IMG/VR virus record: IMGVR_UViG_3300017613_000461
Span: 1 to 35,911 of that record
DNA length: 35,911 nt
Direction: 5' to 3' (one strand)
Origin: a virus
Within the stretch, counting starts at the first letter, position 1. Every line of letters begins with the position of its first letter. The notes below the pieces were generated by a model that was not told the DNA's origin, did not search any database, and saw only the letters and a program-made list of their open reading frames with translations. Of the stretch, positions 5,411-32,373 are shown one piece after another. Both the position numbers and the translations under genes were made by a program.

Positions 5411-7606
5411 ATGGGTAGATATTACGCACCTTTCCAAACCGCACTTGATAGCAACGGTGATCCTATTTCTGGTGCAAAGTTATATTTCTATCAGACCGGG
5501 ACAACCACGAAATTAACTACATACAGTGATTCTGCTCTCACCACGGCAAATACTAACCCCGTCATTGCAGATTCGGCAGGCAGGTTTGGTGATATATATT
5601 TGAGCAGTTCATCCACATATAAGGTGGTGCTCAAAGATGAGAATGATGTACTTATAAAAACAACCGACCCTCTTGATGGAACGGCATCTGGTAGCAGTAT
5701 CTGCGATGTAAAGGCGTTTGGGGCAGTCGGTGATGGAGTTACAAATGATCATGATGCTATTGCTCTAGCGTTAGCTTGCGCTGCCAATTCTGTCTATGGA
5801 ACCGGCGCTGTATTTTTTCCACGAGGTCATTACAAGATTGATACGGACGATGGCACGTTAACGATTCAGGAAGGTGTGGAAATGTACGGCGAGGGCGGGA
5901 TTCAGGTTCGTCGTCCAGGGGTTCAGTTGCAAGGCACTGTGATAGATATAGTGGGAACAACAAATTCTCCGTTTACTTATGAGCGTGGCACATATATTCA
6001 CAATCTATCTTTTGATTACTCGGATGAAGAAGAAGACCCCGTAACTCCTACAACCTATCCTTATTGTTTTCAGGGGGATGCTTCTACGAATGGGGCGAAG
6101 TCGTTTTTCGAGAATCTGTACTTTGATCGTTGTTTTAAAGGATTCGAAGCAACAGGCGGCACGGCATGGACAGGGGTGCATGGGTGTTTTTATAATCAAG
6201 TTATAAGTATTATCAATTCATCTGCTGTTTGCCGTATTACAGATTGCAGTTTCTCGTCAGTATGGCATCGAACAACAAATACAAATCTTAAGGCATATCA
6301 GCAAGACAATCTAAAAATCATCGAAGTTGATGGAGGGGCAGATGGGTTGATAATAAACGGAATGACCGTTTATATCGCCAAGATTTTCCTTTCATTGGTG
6401 AATGGTGATGGTATTAACTTTTTCCGTATGGGCGATTACCTGCTAGACGGTGTTCCTGATCTCATTTGGATGGATACCGATGTGATCGTTTACTCGATGC
6501 AGTTTTCAAACGGTATGCACAGGATGTATAACGATTGGGGTTCAACCAGTCGAATCTCTCCTTGTGTTTTTGATGGCTATACTTCAGCCGCGAGTGCCGG
6601 TCAGGTAGTTCATTTTCAGAATTGTCGGTTTCGTGTTTCACCAGGCGGTGTATTTTCGGTTGAGAGTGGAATCACATTAATTCTTGATGGCTGTTCATTC
6701 TTCGATTGGAACGTAGACGCAGGTGCAAGCGCAGAGGCAATGTCGGTTGTTTACATGAATCATGCCAGTGCTAACTTGGTCGTTAATGGAGGATCTGCTG
6801 ACAATAATACGCAATATAATTTAGCGGTAGAGTCGCGCTTAGTTACTGTTGACGCGGCTAACCGCGTAACAGTCAACGGGATGGATCTATTTAAAGTTAA
6901 AAAGATAGTCAATGTCTCGGCTGGTGTAACACTCCCTTATCTCTCTTGTTTTGGTAATACGGGAAAGGACATTGATAACCCCATCGCAATGGGGGCGGGC
7001 GCGTCGGTTACTTACCGAGAAGTTGCGCAAAATAACTGGGAGATACTTAATACAGAAACGATTGCATCGGATACAACAATCACTATAGCGAAAGATGAAT
7101 CTACGCTAGCAAAGGTCACTGGAACAACGGCAATAGAGGGCATTACGGAATCCTGGACGGGTCGCATAATTGTTCTGAAATTTGGCGCGACCTGCACGGT
7201 TAGTGATAATGCAGATAATATTCTGCTAAGAGATAGCCGTGATTTTGTTGGTGAGGTTAGTGATTGCTTAACACTGGTATATGACGGGTCAAATTGGTAT
7301 GAAACCAGCAGATCAAGAAACGTAACACTTACTACGCTTGAAACACTGGCAGCTGCAACGGAAATTACAATTGACCAAGATCATACAACAGTATGCACTA
7401 TAACCGGGACCACTCAAATCGACACTATTACCCCCTCATGGGCTGGGAAAGTAATAATTCTGAAGTTTGCATCGACTCCCACTGTTAAAGATGGCGCGGA
7501 TAATCTCGTATTAGCTGGAGCTGATTTTGTGGCTACTGCCCAAGATACGCTTACGTTATTTTGTGATGGAGTAAAATGGATAGAAACATCAAGATCGGTA
7601 AACTAG
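5411..7606 (+). CDS. Tailspike with pectate-lyase-type beta-helix
   Basis: 731 residues. Residues 1-90 form a head-binding-like domain (YYAPFQTALDSNGDPISGAKLYFYQTG). The segment DVKAFGAVGDGVTNDHDAI (about residues 98-117) is the classic entry to a pectate_lyase_3 right-handed beta-helix, seen in capsule- or LPS-degrading tailspikes. The helix runs to about residue 530. Two tandem repeats of about 90 residues follow (about 547-637 and 643-731), each with an ATxxTIxxDxxTxxxxTGTT...W.G.I..LKF pattern ending ETSRS. The reading frame ends in TAG, but the same frame stays open for 62 more codons. It binds and probably cleaves the surface polysaccharide receptor. Confidence 0.8.
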   Translation: MGRYYAPFQTALDSNGDPISGAKLYFYQTGTTTKLTTYSDSALTTANTNPVIADSAGRFGDIYLSSSSTYKVVLKDENDVLIKTTDPLDGTASGSSICDVKAFGAVGDGVTNDHDAIALALACAANSVYGTGAVFFPRGHYKIDTDDGTLTIQEGVEMYGEGGIQVRRPGVQLQGTVIDIVGTTNSPFTYERGTYIHNLSFDYSDEEEDPVTPTTYPYCFQGDASTNGAKSFFENLYFDRCFKGFEATGGTAWTGVHGCFYNQVISIINSSAVCRITDCSFSSVWHRTTNTNLKAYQQDNLKIIEVDGGADGLIINGMTVYIAKIFLSLVNGDGINFFRMGDYLLDGVPDLIWMDTDVIVYSMQFSNGMHRMYNDWGSTSRISPCVFDGYTSAASAGQVVHFQNCRFRVSPGGVFSVESGITLILDGCSFFDWNVDAGASAEAMSVVYMNHASANLVVNGGSADNNTQYNLAVESRLVTVDAANRVTVNGMDLFKVKKIVNVSAGVTLPYLSCFGNTGKDIDNPIAMGAGASVTYREVAQNNWEILNTETIASDTTITIAKDESTLAKVTGTTAIEGITESWTGRIIVLKFGATCTVSDNADNILLRDSRDFVGEVSDCLTLVYDGSNWYETSRSRNVTLTTLETLAAATEITIDQDHTTVCTITGTTQIDTITPSWAGKVIILKFASTPTVKDGADNLVLAGADFVATAQDTLTLFCDGVKWIETSRSVN

Positions 7607-7795
7607 CATTTAGAATCATTTTACTACCCAATAGGGCAGGCAACTGAAAAAGAAACCATCCGGGCAGACGGCCAGTTCTATATGAATGTCGGAGACACTG
7701 CCAACGTTTACCTAGCAAGAATAACCGGGAGCGGTTCCTTCACCCTTTCCACGGTTTCAGAAGATTCCAGTTTCGATATCCAAAGAGTTGAATAA
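7607..7795 (+). other. In-frame extension behind the tailspike amber stop
   Basis: Directly after the TAG (7604-7606) the tailspike frame stays open for 62 codons to TAA (7793-7795). The translation is protein-like (SFYYPIGQATEKETI...GSGSFTLSTVSEDS). The frame has no ATG until 7682, and no convincing ribosome site precedes that ATG. The TAA overlaps the next ATG as TAATG, the coupling used elsewhere in this genome, which suggests ribosomes reach this point. It may be a readthrough tail domain, a remnant of a longer spike, or a 37-residue gene starting at 7682. Confidence 0.55.
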
Positions 7796-7908
7796 TGCAC
7801 CCCTACGTCCCAAAGAAAAAACCCGATTATGCGATTATGGCGTATCGGGCAGGGTGGCGGGATTGTTTACGCTGGATGCTTAGGAAGTTAACGGCTGTTC
7901 ATTACTAA
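7795..7908 (+). CDS. 37-residue basic protein, unknown
   Basis: A short frame starting MHPYVPKKKPDYAIMAYRAG, rich in Lys, Arg and Trp, with no recognised family. Its ATG overlaps the TAA of the tailspike extension (TAATG), and it is the last + strand frame before the converging minus-strand operon. The region behind it (7909-7934) holds only a weak AATTA/TAATT dyad, so the late operon has no obvious strong terminator here. Whether it is expressed is inferred from the overlap. Confidence 0.4.
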   Translation: MHPYVPKKKPDYAIMAYRAGWRDCLRWMLRKLTAVHY

Positions 7909-7934
7909 ACCTTCCCCAATTAGCAGTTAATTAG

Positions 7935-8174
7935 TCACCTCTTCGCAGCGTTTTGTTCATTCATCGCGTCGGCACAGTCTAAGCACATTAATGGTGTAGC
8001 GGGGTTGCCAGATACTGGAATCATATGGTCTGGGTTGTGTCTTGTTTCGCAGTAGCAACAAGGATAATCACCGTTTTCGTCGATTAAATCCATCTGTGCT
8101 TCAACTTGAAGATCAAGTAAGTGTAGTAATTGCCGATGCAATTTCAGGCGGGACAACCACTCGTCGGTTCTCAT
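7935..8174 (-). CDS. Small HNH-like zinc protein
   Basis: 79 residues from ATG 8174, which overlaps the upstream stop as ATGA; an in-frame ATG at 8240 lies inside the upstream gene. The C-terminal half has CCYC, then HNPDHMIPVSGN, then MCLDC. The DHMIPVSGN stretch flanked by two CxxC-type pairs is the signature of small zinc-bound HNH nucleases, but the final catalytic asparagine/histidine is not certain. It is the last gene of the minus-strand operon. It could be a nicking nuclease or only a structural zinc knuckle. Confidence 0.5.
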   Translation of the reverse strand: MRTDEWLSRLKLHRQLLHLLDLQVEAQMDLIDENGDYPCCYCETRHNPDHMIPVSGNPATPLMCLDCADAMNEQNAAKR

Positions 8175-8410
8175 GTTATCTCCGTTGGCATAGGTACGCA
8201 GGGGCATACGGTAGAGTTGGGTGAATTGCCTGCGCCACATACGGGGCAGATCCAGCCGGCCTGTATGTTAGTAGGTGGCATGGTGGCTATGTCCCCCTCT
8301 CCTACGATATCGCCATATGTACTACCGCTACGCGTTGGACACCTTGTCAGGTGTGGATACCCTTCTTGTACTCCGCAATACTTGCAACGGATAAATTGTT
8401 CTTTACACAT
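8171..8410 (-). CDS. Zinc-ribbon protein with an embedded tail-fibre segment
   Basis: 79 residues. The N-terminal half has CKYCGVQEGYPHLTRC and the C-terminal half WICPVCGAGNSPNSTVCPC, two cysteine knuckles of the kind found in small lambdoid accessory proteins. Between them lies GDIVGEGDIAT, encoded by 34 nt identical to part of the tail-fibre gene at 5145-5178. The start has a good ribosome site (GGAGAGA) just before ATG 8410. It overlaps the preceding 42-codon frame by 8 nt and the next gene by ATGA. Function unknown. Confidence 0.6.
   Translation of the reverse strand: MCKEQFIRCKYCGVQEGYPHLTRCPTRSGSTYGDIVGEGDIATMPPTNIQAGWICPVCGAGNSPNSTVCPCVPMPTEIT
8281..8314 (-). repeat. 34-nt segment shared with the tail-fibre gene
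   Basis: This is the exact reverse complement of 5145-5178. It falls in the linker between the two cysteine knuckles of the zinc-ribbon gene and is read in the same frame as in the tail fibre. Confidence 0.9.
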
Positions 8411-8531
8411 TTCTCTCTCCAGTCACCTTATTATTAATTCTACGTCTACTGACAATACTACCGTTAATGCGTTTCCTTACAAAATAATCGGCATTGTTTA
8501 TGCCAGCCCCATATACTAATTTCTTCAACAT
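8403..8531 (-). CDS. 42-residue basic protein, possible remnant
   Basis: The ATG at 8531 overlaps the stop of the DUF1364 gene by 7 nt, and the TAA overlaps the start of the zinc-ribbon gene by 8 nt, so it fits exactly into the operon. The protein begins MLKKLVYGAGINNADYFVRK and is Arg/Lys/Asn-rich. The VYGxGINxADY pattern recalls the N-terminus of a longer family of phage HNH/AP2-type proteins. If so, this is a shortened remnant kept for coupling. That link is from memory and tentative. Confidence 0.45.
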   Translation of the reverse strand: MLKKLVYGAGINNADYFVRKRINGSIVSRRRINNKVTGERNV

Positions 8532-8794
8532 TTAATTTTGCCCTCTTTAATCAATATCTCTATCGTCCTATACATCCCTTCCAGTTCGTCCAGCCTGTGT
8601 ACTCTAGGAGAGGCGTGGATAGCGGCATGACACGCTTCACATGCCCAACACCCAAGCGCGTCGTTTGGCTTTAACCCAAGCCCTGAGTTGATCCTTACGT
8701 GGTGCAAAACAACGGTTTCAGAATCGTGGTTGCATGTAACGGCAATACGGGCTTGGCAATCCCTCCCTCTAGCCTCTTTGCGGAGATTGCTCAT
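8525..8794 (-). CDS. DUF1364 (YbcO-type) putative nuclease
   Basis: 89 residues beginning MSNLRKEARGRDCQARI. The pattern LRKEARGRxCQxRI, then LHHVR, then CWACEACHAAIH and LEGMYRTIEILI matches the DUF1364 / YbcO family of lambdoid prophages, small zinc-bound HNH-like nucleases encoded in the nin-type region. The length is normal for the family (about 95). It lies 3 nt after the preceding gene and near NinB, the usual company for this family. A role in recombination or replication-intermediate processing is inferred from the family. Confidence 0.75.
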   Translation of the reverse strand: MSNLRKEARGRDCQARIAVTCNHDSETVVLHHVRINSGLGLKPNDALGCWACEACHAAIHASPRVHRLDELEGMYRTIEILIKEGKIKC

Positions 8795-8797
8795 ATC

Positions 8798-9037
8798 TTA
8801 CTCAATATTATAAAGCTGTTGATCCCAGGGGCCTGGTTCTGGCGGTGGGATGTCGGAAATGAGATGCCCGATTTCGTAAATACCAATGCTCAAATCGTCA
8901 TAATCCCAATAGTCATTCAAGGCTTTAGGTTCACTTTCATAGCAGTAAACTGCCCCGTTTTTATCCCAGGCCATCCAGTTAAACTCATTATCCACAGGAA
9001 TAGCGTAATCACCCCAGCATATTAGTTTATGTTTCAT
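8798..9037 (-). CDS. Hypothetical acidic protein
   Basis: 79 residues beginning MKHKLICWGDYAIPVDNEFN, aromatic and acidic, ending in a Pro-rich stretch (PPPEPGPWDQQ). No family recognised and no membrane segment. A GAGGTT ribosome site stands just upstream of ATG 9037. It lies in the minus-strand early operon 3 nt before the DUF1364 gene. Confidence 0.55.
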   Translation of the reverse strand: MKHKLICWGDYAIPVDNEFNWMAWDKNGAVYCYESEPKALNDYWDYDDLSIGIYEIGHLISDIPPPEPGPWDQQLYNIE

Positions 9038-9069
9038 GTGGAACCTCTATAGGTCTGCATAATAAGGTG

Positions 9070-9255
9070 TTATGTGTCCTTTGTAGGCCATATTCCATCC
9101 TTAATGTTTTTAGCCATACATTCTTCAGTTTTCTGAATGGCTATGTTCCCTGCCTCTTGTGCCGTATAACCATGATAACAACATTCGTGGTTGACAATAT
9201 TCATCCATTGACTATCAAAAAGCCGGTATTCTTCTTTTTTATCTAAATCAGTCAT
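9070..9255 (-). CDS. Hypothetical small protein
   Basis: 61 residues beginning MTDLDKKEEYRLFDSQWMN, containing HECCYHGYTAQEAG. The short Cys/His cluster could bind metal but has too few ligands for a known finger. The start overlaps the NinB stop as ATGA, so it is co-translated with NinB. Function unknown. Confidence 0.55.
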   Translation of the reverse strand: MTDLDKKEEYRLFDSQWMNIVNHECCYHGYTAQEAGNIAIQKTEECMAKNIKDGIWPTKDT

Positions 9256-9683
9256 TCCGCACCTCTATAATCCTGATATGATTTCTCTGCCTGCTCACTC
9301 CAATTAACTCCTTGTTGAGCGCCAAAAGCATAGATAAGCTCGATTAAATTAGAAAACTCTTCTTTACTCATGGTGCTTGTTCTAGCTCCTAAAACAACAA
9401 ATCCTCCATCGATCCCCGGAACCGCCTTCTGTTGTTTAAGTCCCGCTGTTATAATTTCCTTCCAGTCCTCTTTAGTTAACAGTCTACCGGTCCACTCTAC
9501 CTGATCAGAGATATCTGTAAGCATAGGCCAGAGTTTAGAGTTTTGATCAAGTGACCGTTTCTCCCTCCCTAGAGTAACCACCACAGCCCCCCCAGCCAGC
9601 CCTGCTTTAACTGCATTCCACACGCTCAGCATAACCGGGCGTAGGGTGGATTCGTCGCGGATTGTGAAGGTTTTACCACTCAT
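9252..9683 (-). CDS. ninB: NinB / lambda Orf-type recombination mediator
   Basis: 143 residues, the usual length for NinB (lambda Orf, 146). Recognisable features are the N-terminal FTIRDES, the REKRSLDQNSKLWPMLTDIS segment, WTGRLLTKEDWKEII and the C-terminal YAFGAQQGVNWSE. In lambda, Orf binds SSB and single-stranded DNA and helps load the annealing protein. Here an ERF protein lies in the same operon. The start is tied to the 54-codon gene upstream by an 11-nt overlap. A diverged copy of its first codons occurs at 9850-9881. Confidence 0.85.
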   Translation of the reverse strand: MSGKTFTIRDESTLRPVMLSVWNAVKAGLAGGAVVVTLGREKRSLDQNSKLWPMLTDISDQVEWTGRLLTKEDWKEIITAGLKQQKAVPGIDGGFVVLGARTSTMSKEEFSNLIELIYAFGAQQGVNWSEQAEKSYQDYRGAE

Positions 9684-11946: not shown

Positions 11947-12110
11947 GTCACCGCCCCTAGAATATACGCGCCTATCGTAACCGCTCCTACGATTGCACAG
12001 ATACAAAGGATAGCCAGTCCTGACCATACAGCTAACATGCCGATAGGGCCAAGGAGGTCTCGCTTAACTATCTTCGGTGGGCGTGTGTCGTAGTCTTTAG
12101 GTTGTTTCAT
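11943..12110 (-). CDS. Small membrane protein
   Basis: 55 residues. The N-terminus is hydrophilic (MKQPKDYDTRPPKIVKRD) and residues about 24-53 form one long hydrophobic segment (MLAVWSGLAILCICAIVGAV, then TIGAYILGAV), long enough for one or two membrane helices. The start lies within the end of the upstream alanine-repeat gene (14-nt overlap), and the stop overlaps the next ATG as ATGA. Probably an inner-membrane accessory protein. Not a recognised holin. Confidence 0.55.
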   Translation of the reverse strand: MKQPKDYDTRPPKIVKRDLLGPIGMLAVWSGLAILCICAIVGAVTIGAYILGAVT

Positions 12111-12774
12111 TTTTAGCCCTGATATGCTCAGCTACAATCATTGAAGTAAGACGTCTGTTATATTTATTCAGCATTTCGTCCCTAGCAGCGTCCCAAGCAG
12201 CGGCCCTAGCAGCGGCCCTAGCAGCGGTCCTAGCAGCGTCCCAAGCAGCGGCCCTAGCAGCGGCCCTAGCAGCGGCCCAAGCAGCGTCCCTAGCAGGGTC
12301 CCTAGCAGCGGTCCTAGCAGCGGCCCAAGCAGGGTCCCTAGCAGCGTCCCTAGCAGCGTCCCAAGCAGGGTCCCTAGCAGCGGCCCTTAGTGTGTCATCG
12401 CCTGTTTTTAGATATTCAATAACAATATCCGGCGCATTCCATATGTGAATAACGTCAAGCGCACAGCGGCGAGAGAAGGCACGCAGAATGTCGGTTGCGT
12501 CAAATCCCCATAGGTACGTTCGGTTTGATGCGGCGATTTTGTTATCATCAGTAACAATTATCCCCGACAGTTCAACTCGATAAATGATCGGGCCAGGGGC
12601 GTAAAAGAGCGCATCTGTAATGCGTTTGCTGGCATGTAGGCCCCACCCACAAACCCTAATCCTGTTTTTAGCAGTGGATAGAGTGTGGGTTTCTCCTATG
12701 TGTATTAGGCGATCATCGCCATAATTTAGACGACGATCTTCTTTAGCAAAGTGCCATGCTTTGATCGGGGTCAT
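12097..12774 (-). CDS. Protein with N-terminal DUF7666-like domain and 4-residue alanine repeats
   Basis: 225 residues from ATG 12774, preceded by AGGAGCGAGGA. The first about 125 residues (KAWHFAKED, CGWGLHASKRITDALFYAPG, YRVELSGIIVTDDNKIAAS) resemble small phage and prophage domains in which a GLHA/GFHA motif precedes an ELSG strand. Residues about 130-197 are 17 units of a four-residue repeat (AARD, AAWD, PAWD variants) encoded by 12-bp DNA repeats. First gene of the minus-strand operon, expressed from the divergent promoter at 12806-12834. Function unknown. Confidence 0.6.
   Translation of the reverse strand: MTPIKAWHFAKEDRRLNYGDDRLIHIGETHTLSTAKNRIRVCGWGLHASKRITDALFYAPGPIIYRVELSGIIVTDDNKIAASNRTYLWGFDATDILRAFSRRCALDVIHIWNAPDIVIEYLKTGDDTLRAAARDPAWDAARDAARDPAWAAARTAARDPARDAAWAAARAAARAAAWDAARTAARAAARAAAWDAARDEMLNKYNRRLTSMIVAEHIRAKNETT
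12184..12387. repeat. 17 tandem copies of a 12-bp repeat
   Basis: Seventeen contiguous 12-bp units of the form AGCAGSGKCCCW, with variants GCGGCCCT, GCGTCCCA, GGGTCCCT and GCGGTCCT after AGCA. On the minus strand they encode four-residue units (A-A-R/W-x). Unit variants are interleaved, so the array seems to have grown by duplicating blocks of several units. Such arrays change length easily by slippage. Confidence 0.9.
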
Positions 12775-12805
12775 TCCTCGCTCCTTTCTTGTGGTTAGTG
12801 AGATA

Positions 12806-12834
12806 AGCATAGGACAAGCAGTCACAGATAGCAA
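12806..12834 (-). promoter_or_regulatory. Early leftward promoter
   Basis: Reading the minus strand: TTGCTA (12834-12829), 17-bp spacer, TATGCT (12811-12806). It would transcribe the minus-strand operon starting at 12774. Its spacer carries TCTGTGAC-N5-GTCC, which also occupies the spacer of the opposing promoter. Confidence 0.65.
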
Positions 12835-19464: not shown

Positions 19465-19647
19465 GTGAGGGGAGGCGCAAGAAAGGGGGCAGGCAGGCCC
19501 CCTATTGACCCACAGAGGCTTAAAATCCCTGTGGGGTATAGGTTGCCGAGGTGGCTTGTTGAAAAGCTTAGAGAGGCCGATCAGCCTGCCGCTATCCAAA
19601 TAGAGGCTGCTTTACGGCTTATGAAGGGGTGGAAGCCTCCCAGTTGA
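19465..19647 (+). CDS. Conserved small basic protein
   Basis: 60 residues from GTG 19465, one base after the previous stop; an in-frame ATG at 19408 lies inside that gene. RGGARKGAGRPPIDPQRLKI, then VGYRLPRWLVEKLRE and QIEAALRLMK suggest an AT-hook-like basic head and a ribbon-helix-helix-like body. This type is common in phages and may bind DNA. The TGA stop overlaps the -35 box of the late promoter. Confidence 0.6.
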   Translation: MRGGARKGAGRPPIDPQRLKIPVGYRLPRWLVEKLREADQPAAIQIEAALRLMKGWKPPS

Positions 19648-19672
19648 CAGACCGCAAAAAATAGGCTAAATT
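19644..19672 (+). promoter_or_regulatory. Late promoter (pR'-like)
   Basis: TTGACA (19644-19649), 17-bp spacer, TAAATT (19667-19672). A second -10-like hexamer TACAAT (19676-19681) lies at the expected transcription start, as in lambda where such an element causes the sigma-dependent pause used by Q. The terminator at 19688 begins only about 9 nt after the start. Confidence 0.75.
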
Positions 19673-19687
19673 CAGTACAATGTTATT

Positions 19688-19715
19688 AGCTCGCCTTCCA
19701 CGGCGGGCTTTTTTT
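19688..19715 (+). terminator. Intrinsic terminator right behind the late promoter (tR'-like)
   Basis: An 8-bp stem (AGCTCGCC with GGCGGGCT, one G-U) with a 6-nt loop, followed by seven T. Without antitermination the transcript would be only about 35 nt long. All genes from 19729 round to 7908 lie downstream on the same strand. Confidence 0.85.
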
Positions 19716-19827: not shown

Positions 19828-20148
19828 ATGTCTATGGTGACAAAAAATGGTAGCAATGCTACACAAACACTGGCGCAACGAATTATCGGACCTTTGGTGG
19901 TTGCCTCACTCATGGGGTTGGGTATGGGGTGGCTTGGGATTAGGGATGCTGTTAGGACTCATACTGTACAACTTGAGTCGCTAATCACAGACCAGAACAA
20001 GGGCAAGCGGTTTACTTGGGATGACGGCCAAAGACATGAACGGCAAATAAACCTCTGTAAGAGAAAACTGGACGCTAGAGAAAGTCGAGAACATGAACGG
20101 ATTGATTATTTGGAACTGAGAATCAAGGCGGTTGAGAGCAGAATGTAA
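19828..20148 (+). CDS. Small membrane-anchored coiled-coil protein
   Basis: 106 residues. One hydrophobic segment (about residues 18-37, RIIGPLVVASLMGLGMGWLG) is followed by a long charged helix (RHERQINLCKRKLDARESREHERIDYLE). The layout suits an inner-membrane protein with a coiled coil, such as a spanin-like or holin-associated protein. It lies at the start of the late operon where lysis genes are common. No lipobox partner was seen. Confidence 0.5.
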   Translation: MSMVTKNGSNATQTLAQRIIGPLVVASLMGLGMGWLGIRDAVRTHTVQLESLITDQNKGKRFTWDDGQRHERQINLCKRKLDARESREHERIDYLELRIKAVESRM

Positions 20149-20173
20149 CGAATTCCCTTAGCTGAGGACAGAT

Positions 20174-20250
20174 GGATGGGAGTAACCGAAAGGAATGTCG
20201 GGCCTTGCACCCGATCTCCCATCCTCATTTGATTGCAAGGATCAATGAGG
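20174..20250 (+). ncRNA. Structured leader RNA with two kissing hairpins
   Basis: Three stems: GGATGGGAG/CTCCCATCC (20174-20182 with 20216-20224); inside it TCGGG/CCCGA (20198-20202 with 20210-20214) with the 7-nt loop CCTTGCA (20203-20209); then CCTCATTTGAT/ATCAATGAGG (20223-20233 with 20241-20250, one bulged T) with the 7-nt loop TGCAAGG (20234-20240). The two loops are perfectly complementary. The last stem pairs the GAGG ribosome site of the gene at 20259, so it could switch translation. The outer stem and the last stem compete for two C residues. Confidence 0.65.
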
Positions 20251-20258
20251 AAATAGAA

Positions 20259-20825
20259 ATGGCATTTAATGATTTATTTCGAGTGTACCCGAATCGGAAT
20301 CCAGAACTCCGAGCCACCGCGAAACAGATGTATGAATTCGGGCGAAACATAGCCCAAGAGCCATCTGCAGGCCGAAGCGCTGGCCTTGACGAGTGGGCTA
20401 TCAATCGTCAAGAGGTGTACATCAAGAGGGCCAAGGATCGCTTGGAAGCGATGAAAAAGGCTCCGCGCCCCGATCAGCCCGCTACTCATCCGACGAATCT
20501 CGATATTGATTTTACCGTCGAGTACAACCAGTTTACGGTCGCGACGGATGGCGATAAGATTCCGATCAACGAGGACACCCAGTTGATCGCTGAGCTATGG
20601 ATGTTTTGCGCTTCTGAACTGGCAAAATCCGCAACGGCCACTGACGCAGGATCTATCTATGGCCCGGATTACAGGAGAGCCGTGGCAAAGGTCGATGCTA
20701 TTTCAAAGTACGTCGGGGAGTGTAAATCCCGTCTGGAAGACGAGGAAGAGTTGGATCTCCCAGAGACCCAAGATCCTGGTGCATTACTGGAAGTGCCGAC
20801 CCGTGGAATGGGTGGCGCACGATAA
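20259..20825 (+). CDS. Late hypothetical protein under a structured leader
   Basis: 188 residues from ATG 20259, preceded by GAGGAAAT, which lies in the hairpin described at 20174-20250. The frame is also open back to 20172, but that part coincides with the RNA structure. Sequence is helical (NPELRATAKQMYEFGRN, ELWMFCASELAKSATATDAG) with an acidic tail. No family recognised; not a known endolysin. Placed between the first late membrane protein and the holin/spike genes, it may be structural or lysis-related. Confidence 0.55.
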   Translation: MAFNDLFRVYPNRNPELRATAKQMYEFGRNIAQEPSAGRSAGLDEWAINRQEVYIKRAKDRLEAMKKAPRPDQPATHPTNLDIDFTVEYNQFTVATDGDKIPINEDTQLIAELWMFCASELAKSATATDAGSIYGPDYRRAVAKVDAISKYVGECKSRLEDEEELDLPETQDPGALLEVPTRGMGGAR

Positions 20826-24951: not shown

Positions 24952-25347
24952 ATGCCGTCGTCAGGAGTAACCCGAAAAAACGAGAATCAACGTATACGCC
25001 AAGAGAACCTCAGAAAGCAGTTAGCTGGCCAAGGTCATGTACAACATCTTGTTGATATAGCTAATAAACTGAGAGACCTAGACCCTAAAAACGAATTAGA
25101 CTCATTAGCAATACAAAGACTTAGGGGTGCTGCCGATATTCATAAGGGATTAGTAGACAAATATCTCCCTACTCTCAAGCAGGTAGACAGCAAAGTGGAC
25201 ATGACAATCGCTGATGTATCAGATTCAGAACTTGACGCCAGACTCGATCAAATCATTGCCGCACTCCCAAAAAGCGGAGTTAGTGGAACTCCTGGAGGAG
25301 AAGGCGAGAAGGCAGAAACGCCGCAAGATTCTGACATATTACCCTGA
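24952..25347 (+). CDS. Terminase small subunit-like protein
   Basis: 131 residues. TRKNENQRIRQENLRKQLAGQGHVQHLVDIANKLRDLD, then LAIQRLRGAADIHKGLVDKYLPTLKQVD is the helical pattern of small terminase subunits of P22-like podoviruses with the conserved DKYLPxLK. It recognises the packaging site and feeds DNA to the large subunit. The C-terminal part is encoded in the 134-nt overlap with the large-subunit gene and is Gly/Glu-rich. Confidence 0.7.
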   Translation: MPSSGVTRKNENQRIRQENLRKQLAGQGHVQHLVDIANKLRDLDPKNELDSLAIQRLRGAADIHKGLVDKYLPTLKQVDSKVDMTIADVSDSELDARLDQIIAALPKSGVSGTPGGEGEKAETPQDSDILP

Positions 25348-25954
25348 TACTGGGCCTTTACGCCGTGAGTTGTATCATAAACACACAGCGTTTTTCGCCG
25401 CAGGCAAGGAGCATCGGGAACGACTTATGCTCGCCGCGAACAGGGTTGGGAAGTCAGAAGGTGTCGGCGGGTACGAACTTGCGTTACACCTCACTGGTGA
25501 CTATCCAGATTGGTGGGAAGGTCATACCTTCAAGCGGCCAATTAAGGCTTGGGCAGCTGGTGACACGGGCAAAACAGTGCGGGAGATCATTCAAGCTAAG
25601 ATGCTCGGAGAGCCTGGGCAGTTAGGGACTGGGCTTATTCCAGGCGATAAGATACACCGCACCACCTCAAAAGCAGGTGTATCAGACGCTATTGAGACAG
25701 TTTACGTTAAACATCATTCCCGGCATGGAATGTCACAGTTAGTTCTAAAGTCCTACGACCAACGCCGCGAAGCTTTCCAGGGTACTGAGCAGGATGTCAT
25801 CTGGCTAGACGAGGAATGCCCGATGGATATTTATTCCGAATGTCTCTTAAGGACGATGACCACAAACGGCCGAATTATGTGTACATTTACTCCTCTTATG
25901 GGCCTTACGGACATGGTTCTTCAGTTTCTACCGGGTGGGAAAGTGCCTGAATGA
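25214..25954 (+). CDS. Terminase large subunit, ATPase part
   Basis: 246 residues. YYPDTGPLRRELYHKHTAFFAAGKEHRERLMLAANRVGKSEG contains Walker A (AANRVGKS, residues 74-81). Walker B is VIWLDEE (about 195-201) and the coupling motif is TFTPLMG (about 226-232). This is the complete DNA-translocating ATPase domain of TerL. The frame stops exactly where the nuclease half begins, and the stop overlaps its start as ATGA. Normal TerL proteins of this family are one polypeptide of about 480-500 residues. Confidence 0.85.
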   Translation: MYQIQNLTPDSIKSLPHSQKAELVELLEEKARRQKRRKILTYYPDTGPLRRELYHKHTAFFAAGKEHRERLMLAANRVGKSEGVGGYELALHLTGDYPDWWEGHTFKRPIKAWAAGDTGKTVREIIQAKMLGEPGQLGTGLIPGDKIHRTTSKAGVSDAIETVYVKHHSRHGMSQLVLKSYDQRREAFQGTEQDVIWLDEECPMDIYSECLLRTMTTNGRIMCTFTPLMGLTDMVLQFLPGGKVPE

Positions 25955-26679
25955 GCAAGTATGTAGTAATGGCAACCTGGGATGATGCCGCTCATTTAAC
26001 AGAAGAGCAGAAAAACGAGCTATACGAATCTATCCCGCCCTATCAGAGAGATGCCCGCAGTAAGGGCATACCACAACTAGGGTCAGGGGCTATCTATCCG
26101 GTCCCTGAGAGCGAGATAACCTGTGACCCTATAGAGATACCCGACTACTGGCCTAGAGTGTATGGGCTGGACGTAGGGTGGAACAGGACGGCTGTAGTGT
26201 GGGCGGCGCTGGACCAAGAGAGCAGCACTGTTTACCTGTATTCAGAGCATTACCGTGGGCAGGCCGAGCCTAGCGTGCATGCAGACGCTATCAAGAGCCG
26301 AGGGGCTTGGATTCCTGGCGTTATAGACCCAGCGGCTAGAGGCAGAGGGCAGAGAGATGGCGAGCAACTTCTTCAGGATTATGTCGATCTTGGACTGGAT
26401 CTTGTCCCGGCTAAAAACGCTGTTGAGTCGGGATTATATGCCGTATGGCAGAGGCTTAGCGGCAACAAGCTAAAGGTGTTTAAGACCTGCCAGAATTGGT
26501 TGGATGAATACAGAATCTACAGACGGGATGAAAAAGGCAAAGTGGTAAAAACAAACGATCATTTAATGGACGCAACTCGCTATCTGATAGTAAGCGGCCT
26601 GGATTGCGCCATTGTTAAGCCCGAGCCTGTTAAGACTGGCAGACAGCCCTATGCGGGCGTTGGGAGCTGGATGCGATGA
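25951..26679 (+). CDS. Terminase large subunit, nuclease part
   Basis: 242 residues. After SKYVVMATWDDAAHLTEEQK and ARSKGIPQLGSGAIYPV, the RNase-H-like nuclease core follows: YGLDVGWNRTA (D74), VIDPAARG (D126) and TNDHLMDATRYL (D203, D207). These acidic residues bind the metals that cut the concatemer. The second frame has a TGA at 25948-25950, just before its ATG, so it cannot be entered by frameshifting upstream of the junction. Translation restart at the ATGA is the likely route. Confidence 0.85.
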   Translation: MSKYVVMATWDDAAHLTEEQKNELYESIPPYQRDARSKGIPQLGSGAIYPVPESEITCDPIEIPDYWPRVYGLDVGWNRTAVVWAALDQESSTVYLYSEHYRGQAEPSVHADAIKSRGAWIPGVIDPAARGRGQRDGEQLLQDYVDLGLDLVPAKNAVESGLYAVWQRLSGNKLKVFKTCQNWLDEYRIYRRDEKGKVVKTNDHLMDATRYLIVSGLDCAIVKPEPVKTGRQPYAGVGSWMR

Positions 26680-27314
26680 TTAATCTGCTTCATATCGACT
26701 GCATGGAGTATATGGCAGGGTTAGAAGATAACGCCTTCGATCTGGCTATTGTTGATCCGCCGTATGGTGGAAATGATGCTTTGGATGTGAGAAACGGCAA
26801 TAAACACAATGGAAATAGAAATAATTACAAGCAGTTTGAGAACATTCCTCCAGAAGAAAAGTATTTTAGCGAATTAAAAAGAGTGTCCAGAAATCAGATT
26901 ATTTGGGGAGTTAATTTCTATAAAACAACCATGCTAACTGGTGGTCGTATTGTTTGGAACAAAAAAGCGGGGCATAAATCAATATTTGGTACGTGTGAAA
27001 TAGCCTATTTTTCTAATTCAATGTCATGCGCGTATATAGAAATTAATTGGAATGGATATTGGCAAGATAACATGTCTAACAAAGAAATCCGCATCCACCC
27101 AACCCAAAAGCCCGTAAAACTCTATGAATGGCTCCTAACCAACTACGCCAAACCCGGCCAAAGAATCCTAGACACCCATCTAGGCAGCGGATCTAGCGCC
27201 ATAGCAGCGCATTACTATGGCTGTGATTTCGTAGGATGTGAGCTAGACGAAGATTATTACAATGCGGCCTGTGATCGGTTTGATATGGCCACTAGACAGG
27301 TGGCATTACTATGA
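26676..27314 (+). CDS. Beta-class DNA N6/N4 methyltransferase
   Basis: 212 residues. The catalytic DPPY is at 27-30 (LAIVDPPYGG), HPTQKPVKLYEWLL follows near 141-154 and the SAM-binding DTHLGSGSSAIAAHYYG near 166-182. The order catalytic-then-SAM is that of beta-class MTases (PF01555). Its closing FVGCELDEDYYNAAC is also typical. It sits between terminase and portal with ATGA overlaps on both sides and no endonuclease partner. Probably an orphan enzyme that protects progeny DNA from host restriction. The middle part is more A/T-rich than its neighbours. Confidence 0.88.
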   Translation: MINLLHIDCMEYMAGLEDNAFDLAIVDPPYGGNDALDVRNGNKHNGNRNNYKQFENIPPEEKYFSELKRVSRNQIIWGVNFYKTTMLTGGRIVWNKKAGHKSIFGTCEIAYFSNSMSCAYIEINWNGYWQDNMSNKEIRIHPTQKPVKLYEWLLTNYAKPGQRILDTHLGSGSSAIAAHYYGCDFVGCELDEDYYNAACDRFDMATRQVALL

Positions 27315-31518: not shown

Positions 31519-32373
31519 ATGGATTACAAACAAATAATTTGGCTAGCAAGTTACCCGAAATCTGGGAATACATGGGTAAGAGCGTTCCTGGACGCATATT
31601 TTATGGGCGAGGTAAATATTAATTGCCTACTGTCCTCAATTACAGATGATCAAGCCTCCGCACATCAGATAGGTGATGGAAGCGATTTTATGGAATGCCC
31701 GAGCGCGATTCAAATGCTTACTCGTCCTATGGCATTGCTGCGGATAGTCCGTCAGTACGAAGAGAGCGAAAAGCCTATTCCTTTGTTCGTGAAAAGTCAT
31801 TCGGCCAATATGTTCATAAATGGCATGGAACTAATGCCTGAACTGGTCACAAAGGCAACTATTTTTATAGTGCGAGATCCGAGGGATGTATTGCCGAGTT
31901 TCGCTAAACACATGGGGGTTAATTTAGATACGGGCATTGAGTGGATGCTTGAGAAATACCGCATGTTGAATTCTAAACATACCCAAACAGTAGTTAATTT
32001 CCTTTCCTCATGGGATAGGCACACGCGGTCATGGCTGAATGCCGACGTGCATAATGTTCTGCTTGTTCAGTATGAAGATATGCACAGAGATCCTGTTAAT
32101 ACATTCTCCAGGATTCTTGAGCATTCCGGCGTAACTCCAGATAGAGAAAGGGTGAAAAAAGCGATAGATATCGTTGCTTTTGATAAACTAAAGGCACAAG
32201 AAACAAAGTATGGTTTTAATGAATCAAGCCCTCATGCAAAACATAATTTTTTCGGTACAGGAAAAGTAGGAAGCTGGCAGGAAACCTTAACCCCTACGCA
32301 GAAATACAGAATTGAAAAGAAATTTGGCGCTGTGATGAAGCGTTTAGGCTACTTAAAGAGTAAAGCGGCATGA
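31519..32373 (+). CDS. PAPS-dependent sulfotransferase domain protein
   Basis: 284 residues. The 5'-phosphosulfate loop is YPKSGNTWVRAFLDAYF (residues 12-28), a basic residue follows in FVKSHSANMF, and the 3'-phosphate site is IFIVRDPRDVLPSFAKHMG (about 115-133). Later segments (VLLVQYEDMHRDP, GTGKVGSWQETLTPTQKYRIEKKFG) also match the Sulfotransfer_1 family. It is a complete enzyme that would move sulfate from PAPS to an unknown acceptor. It stands between coat and gp4-like genes, starting right behind a terminator. ATGA overlap with the next gene. Confidence 0.85.
   Translation: MDYKQIIWLASYPKSGNTWVRAFLDAYFMGEVNINCLLSSITDDQASAHQIGDGSDFMECPSAIQMLTRPMALLRIVRQYEESEKPIPLFVKSHSANMFINGMELMPELVTKATIFIVRDPRDVLPSFAKHMGVNLDTGIEWMLEKYRMLNSKHTQTVVNFLSSWDRHTRSWLNADVHNVLLVQYEDMHRDPVNTFSRILEHSGVTPDRERVKKAIDIVAFDKLKAQETKYGFNESSPHAKHNFFGTGKVGSWQETLTPTQKYRIEKKFGAVMKRLGYLKSKAA

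Follow-up and report, generated by a model that had tools for sequence, protein, structure and literature searches.

A candidate kissing-loop translation switch in the 5' leader of an orphan phage gene

Does a short RNA with two matching hairpin loops, lying against a ribosome-binding site, control the phage gene that follows it? The question is raised by an element in IMG/VR record IMGVR_UViG_3300017613_000461, the whole of which (35,911 nt) we call the window. The record represents a 35.9-kb virus with a P22-like portal, a terminase, and an Erf-like recombinase, and the element sits between an ORF ending at 20148 and an ORF running to 20825 (Table 1). The product of the latter, the 20259 gene, had no relative in the phage, viral (IMG/VR), or genome_contigs collections, no Pfam match, and no meaningful PHROG match. 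Our answer is a tentative one: with a probability of about 0.4, the element may be a compact cis-acting translation switch in the 5' leader of the 20259 gene, in which the kissed state would be ON.

Table 1. Features of the element and its surroundings (positions in the window).
Feature	Position	Strand	Remarks
Promoter-like TTGACA-17-TAAATT	19644..19672	+	consensus scan only; possible origin of the transcript
Intrinsic terminator-like hairpin with T-run	19688..19715	+	scan; at most 16 nt past TTGACA-17-TAAATT
In-frame upstream extension, 29 codons	20172..20258	+	translated if ATG 20172 is the start; more likely untranslated
P1 5' arm GGATGGGAG	20174..20182	+	direct reading; pair probabilities 0.36-0.99, minimum at the base competing with P4
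ACCGAAAGG between P1 and P3	20185..20193	+	9-mer also in L092 and L095
P3 hairpin TCGGG-CCTTGCA-CCCGA	20198..20214	+	kissing loop 20203-20209
P1 3' arm CTCCCATCC	20216..20224	+	ends in the two Cs (20223-20224) that P4 also claims
P4 hairpin TCAT-T-TGAT / ATCA-ATGA	20225..20248	+	kissing loop TGCAAGG 20234-20240
GAGG Shine-Dalgarno of the 20259 gene	20247..20250	+	unpaired probability 0.02, 0.06, 0.36, 0.50
Gene 3' of the element	20259..20825	+	188 aa; orphan; late gene of an uncultured phage

Several other features of the record were observed. The promoter-like and terminator-like sequences upstream of the element together resemble a late promoter of the lambdoid type, with a leader under antitermination control. 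The terminase large subunit (25214-26679) is carried by two ORFs with a 4-nt overlap (ATGA), the ATPase domain (Terminase_6N) lying on one side of the split and the nuclease domain (Terminase_6C) on the other. Among its relatives, four encode a single continuous protein (L003, L004, L006, and L007), one has a stop at the same point as the split (L002), and four lose the frame shortly past it (L005, L014, L028, and L049). A DNA methylase gene (N6_N4_Mtase, E = 1e-16) lies at 26676-27314 between the terminase and portal genes, and a sulfotransferase gene (Sulfotransfer_1, E = 6e-27) at 31519-32373 among the structural genes. By eye, the ORF at 251-790 resembles this sulfotransferase, yet it had no Pfam match. 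On the minus strand, the ORF at 12097-12834 combines a DUF7666 match with a subsequent long low-complexity tract of AARDPAW/AARAAAW repeats.

The fold of the element was examined by direct reading and by structure prediction. The first-pass annotation had described two hairpins whose 7-nt loops are exact reverse complements, with a 9-bp outer stem around the first of them, and both features were read directly from the sequence. The outer stem, P1, is Watson-Crick throughout, and P3 consists of the stem TCGGG/CCCGA plus one G-U pair. P1, P3, and P4 are strongly predicted. A feature absent from that annotation is CC-GAAA-GG, a 2-bp hairpin with a GNRA-type tetraloop at 20186-20193. The two C residues that the annotation took to be shared between P1 and the second hairpin are indeed claimed by both; they can pair within P1 or with the GG of the ribosome site at 20249-20250 (-24.0 versus -23.7 kcal/mol), and P4 grows to 20223-20250 once the base of P1 opens. 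The GAGG, likewise placed within the second hairpin, overlaps P4, with its first G and A in lower P4 and its GG contested.

We further examined how often such an arrangement is expected. When the window was shuffled, each strand yielded 0.05-0.13 exact 7-nt kissing hairpin pairs, and the full architecture (stems of at least 5 and at least 8 bp, outer stem of at least 9 bp) arose 0.004 times per strand (2 in 500 shuffles); these rarity figures overstate the evidence because the criteria were set after the element had been seen. In 1.24 Mb of real loci, both strands included, there were 250 loose kissing pairs, or about one per 10 kb of strand. The full criteria picked out only about two or three places there, from a list judged by eye; thus, the element is unusual but not unique. 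The 81-nt core folded better than 199 of 200 shuffles, with an MFE z-score of -2.78, but the z-score was only -0.56 for 127 nt, so the overall stability alone is not striking. We judge the kissing-hairpin element unusual, which is not to say proven.

The Shine-Dalgarno sequence of the 20259 gene lies 8 nt from its ATG, a spacing that suits that start. The GA of the GAGG was predicted to be paired almost always. As the P1 base and the P4 extension are 0.3 kcal/mol apart, the GG would spend roughly one-half to two-thirds of its time in a pair. The site was 0.26 unpaired, the ninth lowest value among 46 scored gene starts. The occlusion is partial and not exceptional for this genome.

A two-state RNA can be drawn from these predictions. 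In the unkissed state, P4 would be fully zipped and the GAGG largely occluded; in the kissed state, the two loops would build a 7-bp helix, which would free the ribosome site and switch translation on. If loop 1 or loop 2 were blocked, by a protein, a complementary RNA, or low Mg2+, the gene would stay OFF. More informative than the degree of occlusion is the geometry, which was estimated with coarse A-form rigid helices; actual loop-loop complexes are strained and flexible. With P3, the 7-bp kiss, and the 8-bp P4 in one stack, the span to be bridged was 51-59 Å (inter-helix angle of 120-180 degrees), compared with a reach of about 27 Å for the linkerless P1 strand that joins P3 to P4 when P4 is closed. 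With 5 nt melted, the needed span was 41-48 Å and the reach 59 Å. Because P4 begins without a linker after P1, the kiss would be impossible on this rigid-helix estimate unless about 3-5 nt of the P4 base unzip. The cost of unzipping lower P4 was approximately 2.7 kcal/mol, against -9.3 kcal/mol for the 7-nt duplex (nearest-neighbour energies; the kissing energy is crude). These values suggest that the 7-bp kiss and lower P4 cannot coexist. Since the melted part of P4 is the part that pairs with the Shine-Dalgarno sequence, kissing should open the site.

The switch reading presupposes that the element lies in a leader, and the alternative is that the gene starts at ATG 20172, so that the stems would fall incidentally within the coding sequence for its N-terminus. 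Read from ATG 20172, the frame crosses the element without a stop and continues in phase into the 20259 gene. In this densely packed genome, a start at 20172 would also leave only 23 nt, instead of 110 nt, behind the upstream ORF, and it has a GAGG of its own at 20164-20167, with a spacing of 4 nt and good accessibility (0.75). The codon content of the extension points the other way. Scored against the codon usage of the genome's other genes, 20172-20258 gave -2.63, which ranks it at the 2.7th percentile among coding segments and at the 41st among stop-free non-coding frames, and the local density favored a non-coding segment approximately fivefold. An earlier score, not conditioned on stops, ranked the segment lower than every one of the 44 gene starts tested. 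A structure predicted from the single sequence of the 217-aa product, N-terminal 29 residues included, was uninformative (mean pLDDT of 41). Judged by its codons, 20172-20258 is more likely an untranslated leader, and we consider a start at ATG 20172 unlikely.

Another possibility is that the element does nothing as an RNA: a pair of ordinary intergenic hairpins may have acquired matching loops by chance and been picked out as striking. We hold this to be quite possible. The abundance of looser kissing pairs in real loci, the weak z-score at 127 nt, the unexceptional occlusion of the Shine-Dalgarno sequence, and the lack of any relative that conserves the element are consistent with it. It accounts less readily for the rarity of the full architecture in shuffles, for a match that uses the loops completely, for the z-score of the core, and for the placement of the element exactly against the ribosome site. 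The least probable of the readings considered here is an intermolecular one, in which two transcripts, or the leader and another RNA, kiss through CCTTGCA/TGCAAGG in the manner of a sense-antisense pair or a dimer. The two 7-nt loops match along their whole length, and as long as P1 and P4 are closed, a kiss within one molecule looks sterically strained; however, the element is single-copy in the record, no antisense partner was identified, and adjacent loops favor contact within one molecule. For the translation switch, the rare architecture, the core z-score, the untranslated-looking leader, the GAGG with its unpaired probabilities of 0.02-0.50, and the geometry argue in favor, whereas the lack of a homologue, the commonness of loose kissing pairs, and a Shine-Dalgarno sequence only ninth least accessible among the 46 argue against. 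Translational regulation by the element is plausible but unproven, and the response to a ligand, protein, or timing cue that the first-pass annotation envisaged is conjectural.

Relatives of the element were sought at the levels of RNA, DNA, and protein, in collections from which the records nearest to the window may have been left out. In agreement with the first-pass annotation, which had recognised no known riboswitch or ribozyme class, the whole window gave no Rfam 15 match at the gathering threshold. At E values up to 10, nothing meaningful was found near the element (one irrelevant lncRNA, E = 3.4). The DNA of the element gave only short chance matches in phages and plasmids, and its neighbouring proteins as queries gave only short partial matches, in six phage records. 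None of the 80 loci with relatives of the terminase large subunit (best identity of 75%) has the element, and a covariance model based on the window found no homologue over the collected loci. The pattern GTAACCGAAAGGAATG gave 8 matches, all by chance, and patterns with CCTTGC/GCAAGG gave mostly chance matches, from which two look-alikes, L092 and L095, remain; both have ACCGAAAGG and a kissing pair in common with the element. A hammerhead ribozyme (CUGANGA core, stem II, GAAA, and stem III) was also considered, prompted by CTGAGGA at 20162-20168 and the GAAA in ACCGAAAGG, and was rejected; on inspection, no stem II could be drawn between them, and Rfam gave no hammerhead.

The L095 structure (1331-1455) combines ACCGAAAGG with hairpins whose loops include CCTTGCAGG and CCTGCAAGG, a 9-nt kiss, all within one outer stem; the 9-mer or its 8-mer core was in the search pattern for this and later scans. 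The structure is intergenic, and downstream of it come first a GC-rich terminator-like hairpin and next a start codon near 1526 (1331-1500 region). It had no match in Rfam. L095 also encodes, at 6913-9594, an 893-aa protein with ADFDGD, which is reminiscent of the NADFDGD motif of RNA polymerase beta-prime. L092 (3192-3275) shares ACCGAAAGG and the CCTTGCA loop with the element and likewise has a 9-bp outer stem, but this stem belongs to an operator-like repeat next to a gene encoded on the opposite strand. When the 28 pattern matches were folded with the kissing strands held unpaired, the strongest folds were those of the window (z of -3.85), L095 (-2.66), and L092 (-2.57). L095 was the only other match with a short-hairpin fold that placed both kissing strands in apical loops.

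These look-alikes raise the idea of a wider RNA family, with ACCGAAAGG followed by kissing hairpins with CCTTGC/GCAAGG, of which L095, and perhaps L092, would be members; it overlaps with the switch reading and was scored separately. The three strongest constrained folds, and the position of the L095 structure ahead of a start codon with its kissing strands in apical loops, speak for such a family. Against it, the number of pattern matches equals chance (19 found in genome_contigs, approximately 19 expected by estimate), the topology of L095 differs, and the outer stem of L092 belongs to its repeat. The covariance model built from the window alone misses L095 and scores L092 weakly (E of 1.2). 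A pattern search of IMG/VR for relatives of L095 through its RNA-polymerase-like protein returned only L095 itself. Because the genome_contigs matches equal the chance estimate and L095 has no IMG/VR relatives by this search, no family is claimed. Homology of L095 and L092 to the element is unproven, L092 may be a chance match, and we regard the family as very unlikely. More doubtful still is the boldest form of the switch reading, a new class of phage 5'-leader switches. In these, a full 7-bp kiss within one RNA would mechanically pull open the lower end of the neighbouring hairpin and thereby free the ribosome site, and ACCGAAAGG would be a family signature found in other phages too, such as that of L095.

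The candidate switch can be set beside known systems. In ColE1, RNA I and RNA II carry 7-nt loops that are complete mutual complements on two separate molecules; the element shares the full 7-nt complement, whereas its loops are adjacent on one RNA. In the purine riboswitch, the two hairpins lie together within a closing stem, and their loops touch only in part. The element is likewise a compact RNA with a closing stem and hairpins whose loops would touch, but its stem encloses the first hairpin only, its loops match fully, and it has no Rfam match to that class. RNA thermometers also occlude the Shine-Dalgarno sequence by pairing in a short hairpin; the feature of the element is a predicted competing kissing interaction, and there was no Rfam match to ROSE or fourU. 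In guanidine-II (mini-ykkC), the nearest functional analogue, switching is proposed to turn on the kiss between two neighbouring hairpins (PMC7544219; PMC7357161). The likeness lies in the two neighbouring hairpins with kissing loops. The loops of guanidine-II are short, conserved ACGR sequences that share only 2 bp, whereas those of the element are 7 nt long, and the element has an extra enclosing stem and no Rfam match. Membership in guanidine-II calls for the conserved ACGR loops, and with CCTTGCA and TGCAAGG it was rejected. A kissing switch calls for two loops within the same RNA that are able to pair along their full length, and the exact 7-nt complement provides them. As a mechanism, the element would be a variant of kissing-loop translational control.

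As an orphan for which no homologues were found, the element is at present only a well-specified candidate. If the switch reading is true, it would be a very small translational switch of a phage, in which the complete loop-loop helix and the ribosome-site stem are mutually exclusive. This would provide a simple mechanical route to turn on a late gene, and the short list of leader elements described in phages would gain another structured RNA.
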